Shown here: positions 37,369 to 45,242 of the stretch, one piece after another
Layout: each line of letters begins with the position of its first letter
Numbering within the stretch: the first letter of the stretch is position 1
Origin: an uncultured Roseicyclus sp.
GTDB taxonomy: Bacteria; Pseudomonadota; Alphaproteobacteria; Rhodobacterales; Rhodobacteraceae
Length of the DNA: 64,000 nucleotides
Reading direction: 5' to 3'
NCBI GenBank assembly: GCA_947489665.1
Contig: CANLEH010000002.1
Coordinates: 589,037-653,036, forward strand
Notes under the pieces: model-generated
The model's input: only the letters and a program-made list of their open reading frames with translations
The model's database searches: none
What the model was told of the DNA's origin: nothing
Program-made: the position numbers and the translations under genes

Positions 37369-38238
37369 TTGAAGCCCGGTTTGCGTCGCGTCACGGCACC
37401 GAACCCGTCGCCCATGACATATACCGGCACACAAACCTATTTGGTTGGCGAGGGCGACGTGGTGGTCATTGACCCCGGCCCGGCCATCCCGGCCCATCAC
37501 GATGCAATTCTTGCTGCATTATCCCCGGGAGAGCGGATCGTGCAGGTCCTTGTCACCCATTCGCACCTGGATCATTCACCGCTGGCACGCCCTCTGTCCG
37601 AGACAACCGGCGCGCCGATCTATGCGGCTGGCCCCTCCGACTGGGGGCGCAGCCCGGTGATGCAGGGGCTTGCCGATGGGGGGCTTGTTGGCGGTGGAGA
37701 AGGCGTGGACCTTTTATTTGCACCTGATGAGCCGCTCGCAGCCTGGAGCGAAATTGATGGGCCGTGGGGCCGGATCGACGTGATCCCAACGCCCGGGCAC
37801 ATGGCCAACCATTTGAGTTTCGCCTGGGACGGTGCGTTGTTTTCAGGTGATTTGGTGATGGGGTGGTCAACATCGCTTGTTTCGCCCCCGGACGGCGACA
37901 TGACCCAATTCATGGGGTCCTTGAAACGGCTCATCATGCGGGAGGGCGACACGGTCTACTATCCGGGCCACGGCGACCCGATCCTGGACCCGATTGCCCG
38001 CTGCAAAGAGTTGATGACGCACCGCAAGGGCCGGGAGGCGCAGATTCTCGCAGCGTTGTCGGAGATAGGTCCGTCAAATGCCCAAACCCTCGCCGCGCAC
38101 ATCTACACCGACGTGGCGCCCGCCCTCTTGCCTGCCGCGGCCCGTAACGTCCTTGCACACCTGATCGATCTTTCCGAACGCTCCTTGATCGCAAGTAACG
38201 GTCCCATCGCCGCCGACACCACTTTTACGCGCGAGTGA
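37369..38238 (+). CDS. MBL-fold metallohydrolase (LACTB2-like)
   Basis: A 289-residue metallo-beta-lactamase-fold protein. The metal-binding HxHxDH motif reads THSHLDHS near residue 63, further His in PGHMANHLSF near 143 and YPGHGDPI near 200, and Asp in LFSGDLVMG near 162. A C-terminal winged helix fits the LACTB2-like group, which includes a human endoribonuclease. The start is a TTG; the only nearby ATG is out of frame and quickly reaches a stop. The tRNA-Asn gene follows 59 bases later. Confidence 0.88.
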   Translation: MKPGLRRVTAPNPSPMTYTGTQTYLVGEGDVVVIDPGPAIPAHHDAILAALSPGERIVQVLVTHSHLDHSPLARPLSETTGAPIYAAGPSDWGRSPVMQGLADGGLVGGGEGVDLLFAPDEPLAAWSEIDGPWGRIDVIPTPGHMANHLSFAWDGALFSGDLVMGWSTSLVSPPDGDMTQFMGSLKRLIMREGDTVYYPGHGDPILDPIARCKELMTHRKGREAQILAALSEIGPSNAQTLAAHIYTDVAPALLPAAARNVLAHLIDLSERSLIASNGPIAADTTFTRE

Positions 38239-38297
38239 AATTTTCCGGTTTCACCTACTGGACGGCCCAAAATCGCCTTGCTATACGCGCCCTCAGT

Positions 38298-38372
38298 TCC
38301 GGCGTAGCTCAGCGGTAGAGCAGTTGACTGTTAATCAATTGGTCGTAGGTTCGATCCCTACCGCCGGAGCCA
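38298..38372 (+). tRNA. tRNA-Asn (anticodon GTT), integration target
   Basis: A 75-nt cloverleaf: acceptor TCCGGCG/CGCCGGA, D arm GCTCAGCGGTAGAGC, anticodon stem GTTGA/TCAAT with loop CTGTTAA, T arm GTAGG-TTCGATC-CCTAC, discriminator G and genomic CCA. Its 3' two-thirds is repeated 6.9 kb away at the far end of an integrated element, while this copy is intact. Confidence 0.97.
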
Positions 38373-38376
38373 ATTT
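38328..38376 (+). repeat. attL: 49-bp direct repeat in tRNA-Asn 3' end
   Basis: The sequence from the anticodon loop of tRNA-Asn through CCA plus ATTT matches the second copy base for base over 49 bp; the flanks differ right outside on both sides. This marks the crossover region of a tyrosine recombinase that uses the tRNA as its attachment site. Confidence 0.92.
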
Positions 38377-38900
38377 CACTAAATAAATCAACACACTAAC
38401 AGCGATCAGGCTTTCTGCCTTGTCCGCGCCCAAATGCTTCGGAAGCATGGCGGAAGCAGTAGCGCAGACATTCTGAACGTGTTTCGACGGCAACAGGTCT
38501 AGAAACTCTTGTGGTCAGACGTCGTACAAAAGCAGTCCGCACCTACCCTCGCTGCGCTCGGCGCGTCTTACGCGCGGGATGTCGGCCCGCTCTCAACCGC
38601 TCCGCCAAGAACTACACCCGAGGGGGCCATTCGCCATGGCCCCCTTCTCAATCCCCCCAGGCACTGCCCGATAGATAGACGGGAAGCGAATGGCACTCGG
38701 CTGCCAGTAACTCTACTTTGCCGGTGCTACTGTGCAATTCGTCGTTCTTCCCATTCGCCGGAGGGGCATAATCTGGTACACTCGATCTCCCTCCCAGTAG
38801 GATAAAACAAAATCACCACAACAACTTTCCAAATTAACCTCGTTGAAGTTCTCACCTCGATTATCCATGGTGAGCGTCAAAATCTTGAAAGCAAGCTCTC
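38377..38900. other. Gene-poor left end of the element
   Basis: I see no convincing gene in these ~520 bases. They hold a perfect 9-bp stem-loop (GGGGGCCAT-TCGCC-ATGGCCCCC, 38622-38644) with a short pyrimidine tail, possibly a terminator or replication-linked structure. A 98-residue frame here has unconstrained composition and no ribosome-binding site. The last ~100 bases are A/T-rich and presumably carry the promoter of the SIR2-kinase gene. Confidence 0.6.
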
Positions 38901-41309
38901 ATGCCTTATGACTCGAACCAGCCCAACCTTAAACGCCTCAAAAGGAGCTATTCTGAAGCGTTTCGCCGAACGGTGTTCTTTGTTGGGGCAGGGTCAAGCA
39001 CAGAAGTAGGTTTGCCAAATTGGTATGACTTGGCAAATGGACTTCTCGCAGAGCTAGATGCAGCAACTCCTACATCAGCATTAGATCAAGATCTCCTGGA
39101 TGAATTCAATATTGCACAGGAACACTTGGAGAATGGTCGTTTATGGGACTTTTTCGGGGCAGTTGAACGGCATTGGACGCAACTTTACGAAGACTATCTG
39201 AACGAGGTGTTTTCCGACGACAAGCTTCGAAGCTGCGAAATTCCAAGTGTCTATCGGCGCATCTGGCGCATGCGCAACGTCGGGCAGATCATGACGTTAA
39301 ACATTGATGGGTTGGTTCGCAGGGCATATGAAGATGCTTTCGGACCCAAAGCGCCTCAACTTCTCGAGTTTCCTGGCACAAACGTTTTGGACAGCAAGTC
39401 CTATTTTTCGCGCAACTATCCAGTCGTTCTGAACCTCCACGGTATCCACTCGCAGCGTACCACTTGGGTAATGAACGCAAGCGAACGGGACAAGCTCTTC
39501 TCGAATATGCGTGGCGGAAGCTACCTTAGTTTTCTTCGACACGTTTTTGAAAATTACAATATTGTATTTGTTGGGGTAAATATTCGCGATATAGCGATTT
39601 CGCCAATTATCGAGGAAATCTCACAGTCTGGCCTACTTCAGGACCATTATTGGATAGTGCCAAATATCAGTACAGACAATTATTCGTGGGCGCAAAGGAA
39701 TGGCGTTCGCACGATCAATTATGAACCAGAAAAATCGGATTCTGGGAGCGCAGCACACTCGACAGTGATCAACTCAATTCTGGACGAGGTGGAGGCATTT
39801 AGGTCGTTTGACCGACCGGCAATTTTGCCGGAAAGGGCCATCTTTGAGGGAAGGAGCTTTCCTAAAACACCTGAACTCACTCAGGAAGCAGCTCAAGAGC
39901 CGATCTCTGCGCGTAATAAGCTTGATGCCCGTATTGAGTTCCTAGGACGGGAGCATGGATTTGATGGAAATCAGGTCGCTGGTTTCATCAACGAGTATTC
40001 GATCCCACTCGAGCTAACTTCAATTACCGGTACGACGGAGCCGTTCAACTTGCTCGAAGATATTGTTCTTAGTACGCTGGTAAGCTCTTCAAATTCTTCA
40101 AATGTATGGTTAGCGCTTCAAAACGATGGCACTACCATGTGCGCGGTAAAGTCTCTAAGCGGTCAAGCCCACAAGGACCCTGTCGAAAGAGAGAGCTTTC
40201 GCCGGGGTATCGAGTCTCTTTATCAGCTGAACACAACAAACCAATCTGTTGCACCCAGGTTTCTTTTCCACACAAACGTCCCATTGTCCGTCGCAATGGA
40301 ATTCATAAATGGCGCATCTTTGGCCGAGATACTTGATAGCTCACCAAATGTAGTTCGGGATTTCTGGTTGGAGTCATTTCTGAAGATCGCGCGCTCACTG
40401 CTGGTTTGCCATGTTTCAGAGGGCGAAGTGTTGCATCGGGATTTGAAACCCAAAAACATCTTGTTTGAAGGTGCCTACGCCGGATGTGATTCCGACGACT
40501 TTCACCAAGCGACGGTAAGATTCATCAATTTTGATATGTCATGGCACAAGTTTAGCGTGGGTAACACTAAATCCGTATCAGCGGATGAAGTCGGCTACTA
40601 CGCTCCAGAGCAGCGCAGTATGGAGAACTCAGACACCCCTCGCTCAACGAGGACCGATGTCTACATGCTGGGCATGGTGCTGTTGTACCTGATTTCCGAA
40701 GCGCCCCCACCCGAGGGCGGCGCAAGATTGGACGGATGGGAAAGCTACCTGCGAACAAAAGTTGGTTCGCGCTTTCAAGACGAGCTGATCCGCTCTAGGT
40801 TGGCTCGCCTTTTGCAACGGATGACAAGCGTCAACGTGGATGAGCGACCCGATCTTAGAAGCGTCATAACGGAATTGGAAATAGTCGACCTAGCTGAACA
40901 GTCGAAGTGGCAGTCGGTTGACCCGGATCTGTTTGTCGAAAAAACTATGACCGAGCTTGGATACGACTACGGTTGGAATGACGACGAGCTCAAGGGTTAT
41001 GTCAAAACGCCACGCCAAATTGAGCTTACATTGTCTTATCAACACAGAGGTCAGCGAATTCGTTTGGATTGGATGAGGCAGAGGGACGATGGCACCGATC
41101 GAAAGAATTTTGGGGGCAAGTTGGGTGAGCTTTCGGCCAAAGTCAAACAACAGCTGAAGGACTACGGGTGGGAAGTGGAAGAAGGCGGTGGCCATCACAG
41201 CAGGTCAATCTCCGCCCATATCAGACATGCTTTGGTCGTCAACGAGCCAGAGCGCTTCTTCGAGTTCACAAGGAATGTTGTCAATCGACTAATGGGCAAC
41301 ATTAGTTGA
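38901..41309 (+). CDS. SIR2-like domain fused to Hanks-type Ser/Thr kinase (putative defence protein)
   Basis: An 802-residue protein. Residues ~20-300 form a SIR2-type NAD-binding domain: GAGSS at 29-33, TLNIDG at 132-137 and LHG at 179-181 (His180 as likely catalytic base). A linker of ~80 residues leads to a kinase domain (about 385-665): AVK with Lys417, HRDLKPKN at 512-519 with Asp514 and Asn519, an APE loop at 568-570, and a DVYMLG helix start at 586-591. The glycine loop is Ser/Asn-rich, and the DFG site reads Asn-Phe-Asp (543-545). The C-terminal ~130 residues are unassigned. SIR2 domains in bacterial defence typically deplete NAD+. It is alone in its direction within a tRNA-linked element. 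No clear ribosome-binding site is seen. Confidence 0.88.
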   Translation: MPYDSNQPNLKRLKRSYSEAFRRTVFFVGAGSSTEVGLPNWYDLANGLLAELDAATPTSALDQDLLDEFNIAQEHLENGRLWDFFGAVERHWTQLYEDYLNEVFSDDKLRSCEIPSVYRRIWRMRNVGQIMTLNIDGLVRRAYEDAFGPKAPQLLEFPGTNVLDSKSYFSRNYPVVLNLHGIHSQRTTWVMNASERDKLFSNMRGGSYLSFLRHVFENYNIVFVGVNIRDIAISPIIEEISQSGLLQDHYWIVPNISTDNYSWAQRNGVRTINYEPEKSDSGSAAHSTVINSILDEVEAFRSFDRPAILPERAIFEGRSFPKTPELTQEAAQEPISARNKLDARIEFLGREHGFDGNQVAGFINEYSIPLELTSITGTTEPFNLLEDIVLSTLVSSSNSSNVWLALQNDGTTMCAVKSLSGQAHKDPVERESFRRGIESLYQLNTTNQSVAPRFLFHTNVPLSVAMEFINGASLAEILDSSPNVVRDFWLESFLKIARSLLVCHVSEGEVLHRDLKPKNILFEGAYAGCDSDDFHQATVRFINFDMSWHKFSVGNTKSVSADEVGYYAPEQRSMENSDTPRSTRTDVYMLGMVLLYLISEAPPPEGGARLDGWESYLRTKVGSRFQDELIRSRLARLLQRMTSVNVDERPDLRSVITELEIVDLAEQSKWQSVDPDLFVEKTMTELGYDYGWNDDELKGYVKTPRQIELTLSYQHRGQRIRLDWMRQRDDGTDRKNFGGKLGELSAKVKQQLKDYGWEVEEGGGHHSRSISAHIRHALVVNEPERFFEFTRNVVNRLMGNIS

Positions 41310-41451
41310 TTTGCTGACAACGCGCGTGGCCACCATCTACTCAAACTTGTTACGCGTAACTACAGTCGGACTGACCGGAAAGCATTGTGGAGATCTGCCC
41401 AAGCATTAACACATTTTTTATTGGCTTTTGAAGCGAACTTCCATTGCCGCT

Positions 41452-42606
41452 CTACGCACATAGCAACGCGCTATACTTCTTTCTTGCATCCCTCAGGCGA
41501 TCAGCAATTGGCCTCGAGCTTTGTTCGACGCAAGCTTGTAAACGCCACGGCAAGTCTTCTAGGAAGGCATCGATGTCAGACGCTTCCACGCCCTCCAGCG
41601 CTGCAAATGTGATCGCATGGCCAGCAGTCAGTTTCAAAAATTCGTTCTGCTTGTGGCGAAGATCTTCCGCTGTAAGAGCGGCCTCATCAATCTTTAGTTC
41701 GTGCTCGAAAAGATCGTTTGATAGCACATCGCGTAGAACTTCCCAGTTTGGGTGCACCGTCCAGTCTGTACGGTCTGCACTATCTGATGGAACGCGGAGC
41801 TCTATGTCATGGGTGAGTTTCTGCAACTCGACAGCGAGACCGGTGTAAAGACTGACCCAACCTTTGATCCCAGCCCGATCTCGCAAGGCACGCTTCGCCA
41901 AACGAAATTCTGATCTCCAAACCCGGCTTCCTGCAGGATCGGAGTAATCGAGCGCCGGTTGTCCCAAGCGCTCCATGGCCTCGTCCCAAATGAAGAACCA
42001 ATCCAACTTGTTCTTCGCCAACGCTTCCTCGCGCTTATCGTAGACGATGACCTGTCTTCCCGGCATCTTTCCGAAGGTTGCGGAGGAGACACGTCCGGAT
42101 CGACCGTTCACACGTGCATCCGATAATTCGAGGTAAGTGCTACTCTTTGTTTGCGAATGCGTTACGAAATCGTATGGGTCGAGAACGAACCCTGGATCAT
42201 GGAAATCGATGGCGTAGTCGACGCGTCGAATACTCACCCCATCGTTTGGTACCGCGCAACCGAGGGCATCTAACATCAAGTCGATATCCTGGCGGACGTA
42301 GTCGATTCCCTTCATTGCAAGCGGACGCGCACGACTTGAATATGCGAGACCCCAAGGATCCTTCGCGTTTGGTTTCTTTATCGTCCAGATACCTCGGCGC
42401 GGGCCTGCATCGAGCACAAACGCGTAGCCACCTATTCCACCAGAGGGACCGACCTCGAAGCGAACGCCATTTAGATCAATGCCCACACCCTGCTTGACGG
42501 CCTCGGCCTCGTCTTTGGCGGATTTAAGTCGAGCAACTAGCTCCGGCGAGATCGTTGATCTGAATGAAATATCAAGCCCATCGAAGCCTGCATGAAGGAG
42601 GATCAT
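41452..42606 (-). CDS. Rep_trans-like replication initiation factor
   Basis: A 384-residue protein resembling the replication-initiation-factor (Rep_trans) family of rolling-circle plasmids and integrative elements. Supporting features are an RRVDYAIDF segment near residue 143 (the family's R-x-D-x-A-x-D motif) and a VIVYDKREEAL segment near 195, where Tyr-x-Lys...Glu is the usual nicking centre. The start ATG is set at MILLHAGFDGLD, since an upstream extension is Gly/Lys/Pro-rich. Such proteins nick the element's origin to replicate or mobilise it. Immediately upstream is a G/C-rich hairpin. Confidence 0.68.
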   Translation of the reverse strand: MILLHAGFDGLDISFRSTISPELVARLKSAKDEAEAVKQGVGIDLNGVRFEVGPSGGIGGYAFVLDAGPRRGIWTIKKPNAKDPWGLAYSSRARPLAMKGIDYVRQDIDLMLDALGCAVPNDGVSIRRVDYAIDFHDPGFVLDPYDFVTHSQTKSSTYLELSDARVNGRSGRVSSATFGKMPGRQVIVYDKREEALAKNKLDWFFIWDEAMERLGQPALDYSDPAGSRVWRSEFRLAKRALRDRAGIKGWVSLYTGLAVELQKLTHDIELRVPSDSADRTDWTVHPNWEVLRDVLSNDLFEHELKIDEAALTAEDLRHKQNEFLKLTAGHAITFAALEGVEASDIDAFLEDLPWRLQACVEQSSRPIADRLRDARKKYSALLCA

Positions 42607-42635
42607 TGGTTTGTTGTCCGTATTAGGTTTCTGAG

Positions 42636-42658
42636 AGGGGGTGTTACATAAACCCCCT
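42636..42658. promoter_or_regulatory. Hairpin upstream of the Rep-like gene (candidate origin or leader)
   Basis: AGGGGG, an 11-base loop TGTTACATAAA and CCCCCT form a 6-bp stem just ahead of the Rep-like start codon. Next to it, CCCCTTTGGGG offers an alternative pairing. Rolling-circle nick sites are often exposed in such loops, but this could equally be an attenuating leader. Confidence 0.35.
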
Positions 42659-42756
42659 TTGGGGCCTTCACCGCCGCGCTTGGCCGCACACCGCACGCCC
42701 CGCCTGACGGCGGCAGCGCGCGGTCGCGCGTCTAATCTGAGCGGGTGCGAGGCAGA

Positions 42757-42990
42757 TCATTGGGAGGTGCTGCCCTTCCGACGGGAATCGACCCAAGCAA
42801 GGACGTCGGATCGGCGGTACCGCACCGAACGTCCAAGTTTGAAAAACTCCGGTCCCTGTCCAGTTACGCGCCATTTCTGGATTGTGCGAACTGAATGGCA
42901 GATGAGATCAGCCACAGCGCGCTCGTCGAGTAGCCCTTGCGGATCAGATCCAGGGGGTGACGCGATGCTTCCATCCATTTGACGCTCCAT
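42757..42990 (-). CDS. AlpA/excisionase-like helix-turn-helix protein
   Basis: A 77-residue MerR/AlpA-type DNA-binding protein: LLDERAVADLICHSVRTIQKWRVTGQGPEFFKLGRSVRYRRSDVLAWV has the helix-turn-helix and wing of the family (about residues 20-68). AlpA-like proteins act as excisionases or activators of integrase in prophages and integrative elements. It lies between the Rep-like gene and the unknown-function gene. An ATG four codons downstream (MDGS) is a possible alternative start. Confidence 0.85.
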   Translation of the reverse strand: MERQMDGSIASPPGSDPQGLLDERAVADLICHSVRTIQKWRVTGQGPEFFKLGRSVRYRRSDVLAWVDSRRKGSTSQ

Positions 42991-43074
42991 TGCGATTGCG
43001 ATGGGGCGAACCTAGTAAGCGCGGTTTTGAAAATCGCTTGAAACCGTGCACGAAATTACTTGGTGCGGAGGAGA

Positions 43075-43830
43075 CTAATTCTGTAAGTTCTTGGCTTTGC
43101 GATGGAATTCCAAAAAGCTCCTAAGCTTGTTTATGGTTTCGTGTTCGGTTTGATCGGGATCCAACGGCCTGAACGCGGCCACGCAAAACCGCGCGGCGTC
43201 AGAAATGGCGCCACCTGCTTTGGCATCGTAGGTGAAATCGCGTCCAAGAGTAGAACACCACATGGATGCGATTGACCGTACCCATTCGTTGAAAGCCAGG
43301 TCGCGCTTAGGGCCCGGTTTTCCACGAAACTGACCCTCCAGTTGCTCGACGATGTAAGCGCGCCCCGCCAGCGCATCAAGCATCGCAACTATCTCGGAGA
43401 TAGAAGCTGTGTGAGGCTGGAAACTCGGCCCGGACTCCACTGAGAGCCTGATCTCATACAGGCTCCAATCGTCGAGTAGCTCTCCTCTTACCTCATATTT
43501 GTTCGGGCCTTCGTCAAACCATTGCGGTGCCTCGCCCAGGCTTCTCCACACTTCTTCCGGCAAGGATTTGAGCTTCTCGCTCGTAGCGCTGAGATTCGCG
43601 CTGATCCTAGCGAGAGCTTGTCTGATCGATGAGACTTGGCTTTGGTCGCGGGCGCGCCACTCGTGCCATCTTTGACCTGCGATCTTCAACTCGCGCGCGA
43701 ACTGCTCAGTCAATTCGACGGGAACGTCAAATTCTTTCGTGATGTCTTGAAGCAGCGACTCTGAGTAGAAGTCTATCAACCTCGCCTCGTCCGCTGCTTC
43801 GTATTCGCGATCCCGATATTGCCCAATCAT
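43075..43830 (-). CDS. Unknown protein coupled to the integrase
   Basis: A 251-residue soluble protein I do not recognise. The N-terminal part is acidic and helical (YEAADEARLIDFYSESLLQDITKEF). A second half has a conserved-looking AGRAYIVEQLEGQFRGKPGPKRDLAFNEWVRSIASMWCSTLGRDFTYDAKAGG block. No membrane segment, nuclease or NTPase motif is evident. Its ATG overlaps the integrase stop by 4 bases, so it is produced with the integrase and could affect excision or another element function. Family identity would need a profile search. Confidence 0.65.
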   Translation of the reverse strand: MIGQYRDREYEAADEARLIDFYSESLLQDITKEFDVPVELTEQFARELKIAGQRWHEWRARDQSQVSSIRQALARISANLSATSEKLKSLPEEVWRSLGEAPQWFDEGPNKYEVRGELLDDWSLYEIRLSVESGPSFQPHTASISEIVAMLDALAGRAYIVEQLEGQFRGKPGPKRDLAFNEWVRSIASMWCSTLGRDFTYDAKAGGAISDAARFCVAAFRPLDPDQTEHETINKLRSFLEFHRKAKNLQN

Positions 43831-45011
43831 GAAACGACCCTCAGCTGGGGGCCATTAGACCGACGGCCCATTGCGTTAGCCAGCCTGCCAGCAACCGAAC
43901 CCGCCGCCCTTTGCACCGCCTCGTCCGCGAAATGGGCATAGCGTAGCGTGGTCTGCAGATTCCGGTGGCCCATGATCTCTTTCAACAAGAACGGATCAAT
44001 CCCACTCATCACTGCAACGCTGGCGTAGGTATGGCGCAAATCGTGCATCCTTACGTCATCGAGGCCCGCTGCGTGTTTCACTCTTAGCCAAGTCTTCTGC
44101 AGGTTCACTAGATGTCCGTCGGGCTTTTCACCGAGGATCACGTATGGGTTCCCTTCCATGCGCGGTAAAGACATCAGGATGACATACGCTTCACGCGGCA
44201 GCGGTATGCGCCGCCGCCCCGTCTTACTGTCCGGCAACTCGAGGTGATGCGGCGTCACGTAGTCCCATTGCAGCGTTAGGATTTCACCGAGGCGGCAACC
44301 TGTCAGGATCAATAGCGAAATCGCGGCGACCGCGTATTGGGTTTCCTCACCGCTTTCCAAAACGTCGGCCAATACTTGTCCCAGGCGGGCTTGTTCGTCT
44401 TCGGACAGATACCGCTTCTTTTCTTCTTCGCGGAACTTGCGGATGCGGCGCGCTGGATTGGAACCATCTCGGCGTAGCCCCCAATCCTCGGCCAGGTTAA
44501 ACATCTTCGAAAGCATCGCCACACACCGGTTCGCTGTATAGGGACGGTCCCGGAGGCCGTGATGAAACGCCACCACATCGGCCCGCAAGACGTCCCCTAT
44601 CTTTCGACTGCCGAAGTGCGGTCTGACGCAATTGTTGACGTAGGCTTTGTAGGCTTTCTGCGTCGTCGGCTTACAGTGATGCGCCACATATTCGGTCAGG
44701 AACCGATCACACAGCGACGCCACGGTCGGTTCACGATGTTTCCGCCGCCGATCCTCCGCCGGGTTTTCACCCCGAGCAACGTCTCCCAATAGCTTTCTTG
44801 CCTCAGCCCGGGCTTGGTCCGCCGTTAGGACGCCATGGGGGCCAATGGTGCGCCGCCGAGACCGCCCACCTGCCCGGTATTGCACGAGGTAGGATTTTCG
44901 GCCCGATGGCATCACGCGAAGACCGAAACCGGACAAGTCTTTGTCCCAGACAAAGTACTCGTTCGCGGTGATTTCCAACTGTTCGACGGATCGCTTTGTG
45001 AGCCTCTTCAT
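43827..45011 (-). CDS. Tyrosine-type integrase (P4-like, tRNA-Asn specific)
   Basis: A 394-residue phage-P4-type integrase. The arm-type DNA-binding domain is N-terminal (VWDKDLSGFGLRVMPSGRKSYLVQYR). The catalytic domain has Arg240 (GCRLGEIL), Lys263, His323 and Arg326 (HDLRHTYAS), His349 (GHRNLQTT) and Tyr358 (LRYAH), all present. The start MKRLTKRS is preferred over an upstream frame whose extension is Phe/Cys-rich. It lies at the attR end, far from the intact tRNA. It is translated just ahead of the unknown coupled gene. Confidence 0.93.
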   Translation of the reverse strand: MKRLTKRSVEQLEITANEYFVWDKDLSGFGLRVMPSGRKSYLVQYRAGGRSRRRTIGPHGVLTADQARAEARKLLGDVARGENPAEDRRRKHREPTVASLCDRFLTEYVAHHCKPTTQKAYKAYVNNCVRPHFGSRKIGDVLRADVVAFHHGLRDRPYTANRCVAMLSKMFNLAEDWGLRRDGSNPARRIRKFREEEKKRYLSEDEQARLGQVLADVLESGEETQYAVAAISLLILTGCRLGEILTLQWDYVTPHHLELPDSKTGRRRIPLPREAYVILMSLPRMEGNPYVILGEKPDGHLVNLQKTWLRVKHAAGLDDVRMHDLRHTYASVAVMSGIDPFLLKEIMGHRNLQTTLRYAHFADEAVQRAAGSVAGRLANAMGRRSNGPQLRVVS

Positions 45012-45193
45012 CGCATCTACCCTCGCTACTCTACCGTTCATCTCGGAAGCACCACGGAAGCACCAGAACCGAAAAACTAGGGTATTGGGTGGGACAGGAT
45101 CGCACTGACCGTCAACAGAAAATTGTTTCCTTACATGCATTTACCGTAAGACAGAGCAACCGGGCGAAAACCGTCGAAATCGACTTCTGGCCT

Positions 45194-45242
45194 CTGTTAA
45201 TCAATTGGTCGTAGGTTCGATCCCTACCGCCGGAGCCAATTT
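45194..45242 (+). repeat. attR: 49-bp copy of the tRNA-Asn 3' end
   Basis: A perfect 49-bp copy of the anticodon-loop-to-CCA part of tRNA-Asn plus ATTT, with different sequence on both sides. The 5' part of the tRNA is missing here, so this is the right attachment-site relic and not a second tRNA gene. Confidence 0.92.

Follow-up and report, generated by a model that had tools for sequence, protein, structure and literature searches.

A SIR2–kinase-fold fusion protein carried by a small tRNA-Asn integrative element of an uncultured Roseicyclus sp., and its predicted role in phage defence

Introduction

What might a bacterial protein that joins a SIR2 domain to a kinase fold do, and what does its position beside a tRNA gene say about it? 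The question is raised by a stretch of 64,000 nucleotides from an uncultured Roseicyclus sp. (Rhodobacteraceae; contig CANLEH010000002.1, positions 589,037 to 653,036 of the forward strand), which we refer to as the window. A first-pass annotation, made from the letters alone, had singled out in it a gene for an 802-residue cargo protein (P0001) and had proposed that this may be a new one-gene defence, in which a Hanks-type kinase domain senses and the SIR2 domain kills.

Results

The reading frame of the fusion gene opens with an ATG at 38901 and, with no internal stops, reaches a stop that ends at 41309. Its product consists of three domains, a SIR2 domain (residues 1-300), a kinase fold (386-667) and a C-terminal domain (668-802), which are placed in the window as follows.

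38901..41309, plus strand: SIR2-kinase fold fusion gene (P0001), 802 residues, ATG start, Pfam matches
38901..39800, plus strand: SIR2 domain, residues 1-300 (Pfam SIR2_2; KomC/DSR2 alignment; row conservation)
39300-39302, plus strand: SIR2 residue N134, invariant, aligned to KomC and DSR2
39438-39440, plus strand: SIR2 residue H180, invariant, aligned to KomC and DSR2
40056..40901, plus strand: kinase-fold domain, residues 386-667 (Pfam Pkinase; alignments)
40527..40535, plus strand: N543-F544-D545, replacing DFG (alignments)
40902..41306, plus strand: C-terminal domain (residues 668-802), the proposed sensor; weak fold match to type III secretion chaperone/YbjN proteins

Pfam recognizes SIR2_2 at residues 130-272, scoring 44.5 bits (cut-off 24.5; E 2.2e-11), and Pkinase at 398-656, scoring 65.7 bits (cut-off 31.7; E 5.6e-18). 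The same architecture was found in 26 closer homologues (P0004-P0029, 35-86% identity) and, among the best 120 of 149 matches, in 79 remoter ones (P0031, P0033-P0110), so the fusion is genuine and neither a product of chance nor an assembly artefact. The reading frame, the Pfam matches and the homologues thus bear out the fusion of both domains in one open reading frame (ORF), as first annotated. Both homologue searches scored the 7995 candidates sharing most words. We excluded P0030, which matches 42% of the query and for which a SIR2 domain is not listed, and all matches from P0111 onward, whose coverage of the query does not exceed 39%. P0001 and its 105 homologues were combined in a 106-row alignment, in which we distinguish the window's clade (clade A, 27 rows) from a sister clade (clade B, 79 rows); four of the 79 remoter homologues lack the SIR2 motifs through truncation.

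The SIR2 half resembles the NADases of known defence systems. The motifs GAGSS (29-33), TLNID (132-136) and LHG (179-181) are where the first-pass annotation had put them, and alignment pairs N134 with N133 of DSR2 and N107 of KomC, and H180 with H171 of DSR2 and H146 of KomC. The fold thus carries the catalytic Asn and His of DSR2, ThsA and KomC, and both residues are invariant in the 102 rows of the alignment that have a letter there. The predicted structure of this half has a DSR2/ThsA/KomC-like fold, at only about 16% identity to DSR2 in the structural alignment. As phmmer with the SIR2 half alone gave weak results against the PDB (KomC at E 0.13, behind a cysteine desulfurase at 0.099), we searched the PDB with a profile. 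Sixteen of the 19 distinct sequences with E <= 0.01 are, grouped by entry name, chains of FAM118B, KomC, DSR2, SPARSA or ThsA; the others are 7uxt, 9v0g and 1ma3, the last of which, a true deacetylase, is the final match (E 3e-4). The first-pass annotation had tied its proposal to an intact NAD-binding pocket and on this structural point it holds up, since both the NADase residues and the fold are retained. These similarities predict that NAD+ is what the SIR2 domain destroys.

The kinase-fold half is less conventional. We set its key positions by alignment with Stk1, CDPK1 and PknB and gave them the customary motif names. HRDLKPKN (512-519), APE (568-570) and DVYMLG (586-591) again stand where first reported. 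P0001 retains the VAIK lysine and the HRD..N catalytic loop of Hanks kinases (K417, H512, D514, N519), and Lys417, His512, Asp514, Lys516 and Asn519 are invariant throughout clade A (27/27). In all 27 rows of that clade, however, the Asp of DFG is replaced by Asn and the Gly by Asp, so that the triplet reads NFD throughout, and none of them has the GxFG core of the glycine-rich loop. An Asn in place of the DFG Asp is a classic kinase-dead change. Clade B keeps the DFG Asp in 77 of the 78 rows with a letter (the exception, P0101, has Asn) and GxFG in 75 of 79. The column of the alphaC Glu holds Gly in every row of both clades (27/27 and 79/79, 106/106 together). With this Gly in all rows, neither clade is typical, and the window's, having lost the loop and the DFG Asp as well, departs further from the norm. 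Immediately after the DFG position, D-x-S-W-H (P0001 545-549) is nearly invariant in both clades and constitutes a family signature, with Asp545 in 105/105 rows with a letter and Trp548 in 104/105.

To follow these changes on a tree we used 99 proteins of at least 700 residues, having dropped nine shorter rows of the 106 and added two proteins from viral contigs; the tree was built by a quick method and its midpoint root serves for drawing purposes only. The 25 Asn-bearing clade A rows fall on one side of a branch with support 100, and P0101 joins them with support 99. This protein has NYD and yet part of the loop (SGPFSSVW), as if the DFG Asp had been lost earlier than the glycine loop.

Given that P0001 has neither the DFG Asp nor the GxFG loop nor the alphaC Glu, losses that the first-pass annotation did not mention, we rejected an ordinary active sensor kinase, and on this point the first-pass annotation was not supported as worded. 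An atypical or non-catalytic switch appears more likely, and on balance we read the fold as a putative non-catalytic one. The invariance of Lys417, His512, Asp514, Lys516 and Asn519 argues for retained nucleotide binding or for some unusual activity.

The whole-protein fold lists were full of kinases and SIR2 chains, so we modelled the C-terminus separately, and we did not count a family missing from those lists as excluded. Built alone, the model reached a predicted local distance difference test (pLDDT) score of 92.5, and residues 668-802 gave a weak fold match to type III secretion chaperone/YbjN proteins, the fold compared being alpha-beta(4)-alpha-beta(2)-alpha. This domain, which the first-pass annotation had not noticed, varies more among homologues than the other two. 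It is a better candidate for the sensor than the kinase domain, and we lean towards that role for it.

We then turned to the DNA around the fusion gene, where the following features were located.

38298..38372, plus strand: tRNA-Asn, integration site (tRNA prediction, Rfam)
38328..38376, plus strand: attL, left 49-bp direct repeat, overlapping the 3' part of tRNA-Asn
38529..38697, no strand assigned: conserved left-end block, common to other elements
38688..41428, no strand assigned: cargo slot, the stretch differing from the sister element of G421
41452..42696, minus strand: element gene, 414 residues (P0002), weak match to phrog_1159 and no Pfam match
42757..42990, minus strand: excisionase-like helix-turn-helix protein, 77 residues (Pfam HTH_17; phrog_66)
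43075..43830, minus strand: element gene of unassigned function, 251 residues (P0003)
43827..45140, minus strand: tyrosine integrase, 437 residues (Pfam Phage_integrase and Arm-DNA-bind_3; phrog_1)
45194..45242, plus strand: attR, right 49-bp direct repeat, identical to attL

The two perfect repeats lie 6866 bp apart and bound an element of 6.9 kb; in 100 shuffles the first 44 bases of the repeat found no chance match. The integrase gene adjoins the right repeat, and the excisionase-like gene and the two unassigned genes lie further in. The G+C content of the fusion gene is 0.46-0.52, against 0.57-0.65 in the left flank. An Rfam scan had the tRNA as its sole match, and promoter- or terminator-like sites were no more frequent in a sequence scan than expected by chance. 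The tRNA-Asn site is present in 13 of 13 genus genomes searched, and four of them, the window's included, have a second copy of the repeat within about 10 kb. In G378 and G1027 the site is empty, with the window's chromosomal flank within about 300 bases of the tRNA; for six of the other seven genus genomes the flank was unmatched in the stretch examined (G1028 left out). With its integrase, its repeats of the tRNA 3' end and the empty site in relatives, the stretch is an integrative element at a tRNA gene.

A sister element in the same genus (G421) defines the cargo. Its integrase and 251-residue gene are 97% identical to those of the window and its 414-residue gene 88%. Because the two elements match on both sides (38219-38687 at 78%, 41429-45240 at 94%), the stretch between, 38688-41428, is a variable slot, and the fusion gene is its only long ORF in the window, in agreement with the original view of P0001 as a cargo protein. 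The slot of G421 instead encodes a 1316-residue TPR-GreAB-C-PIN protein (L023:1848-5798) without a PADLOC match. The available text of PMC8195603 predicts a counter-invader role for such proteins, some versions of which have SIR2 effectors. At the same site in G1029, an element whose integrase is 73% identical (L024) carries Gabija (GajA, E 2.8e-268; GajB, E 1e-233), and in G537 an element with a different integrase at the same tRNA-Asn carries an AbiZ-like DUF6161 protein (L022:1396-2658, E 1.6e-10). The setting of the fusion gene is thus strongly defence-like.

Two further observations concern these elements. Beside Gabija in G1029 lie two genes with no Pfam or PADLOC match (L024:3735-4889, 384 residues, and L024:9544-10692, 382 residues), which are either cargo or element genes. 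The left-end block 38529-38697 is kept at 82-85% in L022, L023 and L024 despite other cargo or integrase; it occurs in five of 13 genus genomes, also near other tRNA-like repeats (G1029:C1:275346-275489, G1030:C1:867994-868061), while the empty site of G378 gave no match to it. It is possibly an origin, a packaging site or a regulatory site.

The fusion is rare. In three overlapping draws of genomes, each including the window's own, it was present in 1/394, 1/390 and 2/385; the 394 belong to the window's family, and there the window's own genome is the sole carrier. Across the phylum a clade B profile matched 17 of 398 genomes. Only the window genome and G687 have matches that span the SIR2 part, the remaining 15 showing the kinase region alone, and of the two genomes in the genus of G687 only G687 itself carries the fusion. 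None of the plasmid records (15 matching) or phage records (eight matching) covers 80% of P0001, and none of the 219 plasmid records matching P0031 covers 80% of that protein. In viral contigs we found no relative from clade A and two from clade B (L055 and L056).

We mapped the settings of seven loci; homologues outside mobile or defence contexts had been named at the outset as evidence against a defence role. Five of the seven, the window element among them, have mobile or defence settings. In G687 (L009) the fusion lies in a 7.1-kb element flanked by a tRNA-Gly and, at a distance of 7143 bp, a perfect 47-bp copy, together with an integrase and a resolvase. In Roseovarius dicentrarchi (L006) it has IS66 genes on one side and, on the other, successive ankyrin, UvrD-like, BrxL and PglZ genes. 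In viral contig L055 it is beside a TrwC relaxase, at zero branch length to P0068 of Limnoglobus roseus, and in L056 it adjoins tail hub and tape-measure genes. The remaining two loci are uninformative or speak for the chromosome: L004, a 7.6-kb contig, has two HNH genes next to the fusion, and in L005 the fusion is at the edge of the contig and is followed downstream by ordinary chromosomal genes.

Side features of two loci deserve mention. In G687 a PP2C-like gene (L009:7279-7944), whose match falls under the Pfam and NCBIfam cut-offs, overlaps the end of the clade B fusion by four bases, an arrangement that suggests a kinase-phosphatase pair. A phosphatase partner as a mark of the canonical clade was considered and rejected, as it was seen in G687 only and none was recognized among the neighbouring ORFs scanned in L055 and L056. 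In R. dicentrarchi (L006:8847-16297) BrxL has a C-terminal phospholipase D-like MIT_C domain, and the cluster with PglZ, the UvrD-like protein and ankyrin is perhaps an unusual BREX-like one.

Finally, we compared P0001 with known systems. The search of both halves against defence profiles suggested at first pass did return such rows: among the best 25 of 36 PADLOC rows, LmuA covers residues 7-299, and MkoA, mad6 and PD-T4-6 cover about 386-680. No row spans both halves of P0001, P0031, P0068 or P0029 (best 25 of 34-38 rows each), and the NCBIfam rows are all under their cut-offs and cover one half each (MAD6, 52.5 bits against 460). Full-text searches, with subscription literature mostly outside their scope, yielded no title or abstract describing a SIR2-kinase fusion, nor do the accessible portions of PMC12839542, PMC13174449, PMC11514479 and PMC13373217; this agrees with the first-pass view of the fusion as undescribed. 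Among the references of PMC13174449 is a 2025 paper in Science about a human homologue of the antiphage SIR2 proteins. The review PMC10952713, as far as its text was available, gives the Sir2 systems as Thoeris, SPARSA, DSR1, DSR2, Sir2-HerA, Avast type V and PD-T7-2; the word "kinase" is absent from that text.

Discussion

We call P0001 a putative defence effector of the SIR2 NADase type whose regulatory half is new. It differs from DSR2, which has about 1005 residues and no kinase fold, in that its 802 residues include one (386-667) between SIR2 domain and C-terminus; DSR2 is reported to bind the tail tube protein. Gating of ThsA (Thoeris) and KomC (Kongming) depends on a small molecule or a partner, and titles of entries in the fold-match list of P0001 mention gcADPR and dITP, whereas the slot of P0001 holds no such partner gene; nor did any element gene (integrase, excisionase-like, two unassigned) give a Pfam TIR match that would point to ThsB of Thoeris. 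The likeness to Stk2, PD-T4-6, MAD6 and Mokosh consists in a kinase domain in a defence setting, but the PADLOC rows MkoA, mad6 and PD-T4-6 lack the SIR2 half and are matched by the kinase part of P0001 only. With the TPR-GreAB-C-PIN protein P0001 shares the slot and no domain content. The SIR2-STAND proteins (Avs5, P4-hotspot) offer a similar layout idea of effector, nucleotide-binding switch and C-terminal sensor (PMC9122126, available text); they have a STAND NTPase where P0001 has the kinase fold, which makes this an analogy and not a homology.

Gabija-type genes are found in related elements at this site, and for that reason we slightly favour P0001 as a one-protein anti-phage alarm that would sense through its C-terminal domain, switch through the kinase fold and deplete NAD+ through SIR2. 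Defence by NAD+ depletion, in itself, we consider probable. In a healthy cell the kinase fold would keep the SIR2 domain inactive, probably with a nucleotide bound in a site where Lys417, Asp514 and Asn519 remain. On infection, the C-terminal domain would capture a phage polypeptide and relay a change via the kinase fold; SIR2 domains would then come together and hydrolyse NAD+, halting the infected cell ahead of phage release (abortive infection). We infer the defence role from setting and domains, and NADase activity, nucleotide binding, switching, sensor and trigger are likewise predictions. Of the one-gene defence first proposed, the single-gene fusion and the defence-like setting stand, but the kinase as sensor gives way to the C-terminal domain. 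More tentatively, a pseudokinase may have replaced the STAND NTPase of NLR-like receptors as a nucleotide-gated switch, with the chaperone-like domain as a bait for extended phage polypeptides, giving a family of NADase immune receptors. The family might in that case derive from a SIR2-kinase protein more like normal kinases, of which one relative adjoins a phosphatase-like gene, a phosphorylation alarm having become a one-protein pseudokinase alarm.

We weighed three other explanations. The fold could be an active, unusual kinase that phosphorylates itself or the SIR2 domain on infection and so releases the NADase, with Asp545 perhaps binding metal. Lys417, Asp514, Lys516 and Asn519 are, after all, invariant in 27/27 rows and Asp545 in 105/105, the sister clade largely keeps the DFG Asp (77/78) and GxFG (75/79), a PP2C-like gene overlaps the fusion in G687, and CASK is a kinase active without normal metal binding. 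We nevertheless judge it unlikely, given the kinase-dead Asn, the absence of GxFG from 27/27 rows, the Gly in 106/106 at the alphaC position, and a PP2C-like match that is below cut-offs and limited to one locus. P0001 could also serve its element, through addiction or exclusion, by depleting NAD+ when a competitor enters or the element is lost. The cargo position within a small integrative element would suit such a role, as would the TrwC relaxase beside the distant homologue of L055 and the integrase-bearing elements of others. However, the slot holds a single gene with no antitoxin-like partner recognized among its ORFs, and Gabija, known for phage defence, is among the sister cargos. Exclusion and defence can, moreover, both hold, and an element-serving factor seems to us a distinctly improbable explanation.

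Least credible, and in our view very improbable, is a sirtuin of metabolism or signalling that has no defence role and acts as a protein deacylase under control of the kinase fold. SIR2 folds do include true deacetylases, 1ma3 is in our PDB list, and the fusion of L005 adjoins ordinary chromosomal genes. Against this, 16 of the 19 PDB sequences are FAM118B, KomC, DSR2, SPARSA or ThsA, and the presence of the fusion is sporadic, with the window's own genome the one carrier in 394 family genomes. The one-protein alarm remains our preferred reading of P0001.

Bacterial immunity makes wide use of SIR2 NADases as suicide effectors, and the key question is how each is restrained and triggered. More than 100 SIR2-kinase fusions, divided into a degenerate clade and a near-normal sister, would allow a test of whether a pseudokinase can serve as a bacterial immune switch and of how a catalytic switch turns structural. 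The tRNA-Asn element is, in addition, a compact marker for defence cargo: as a near-identical element has a TPR-GreAB-PIN protein in this slot, and Gabija is found in an element at the same site, other cargos there are candidate new systems.
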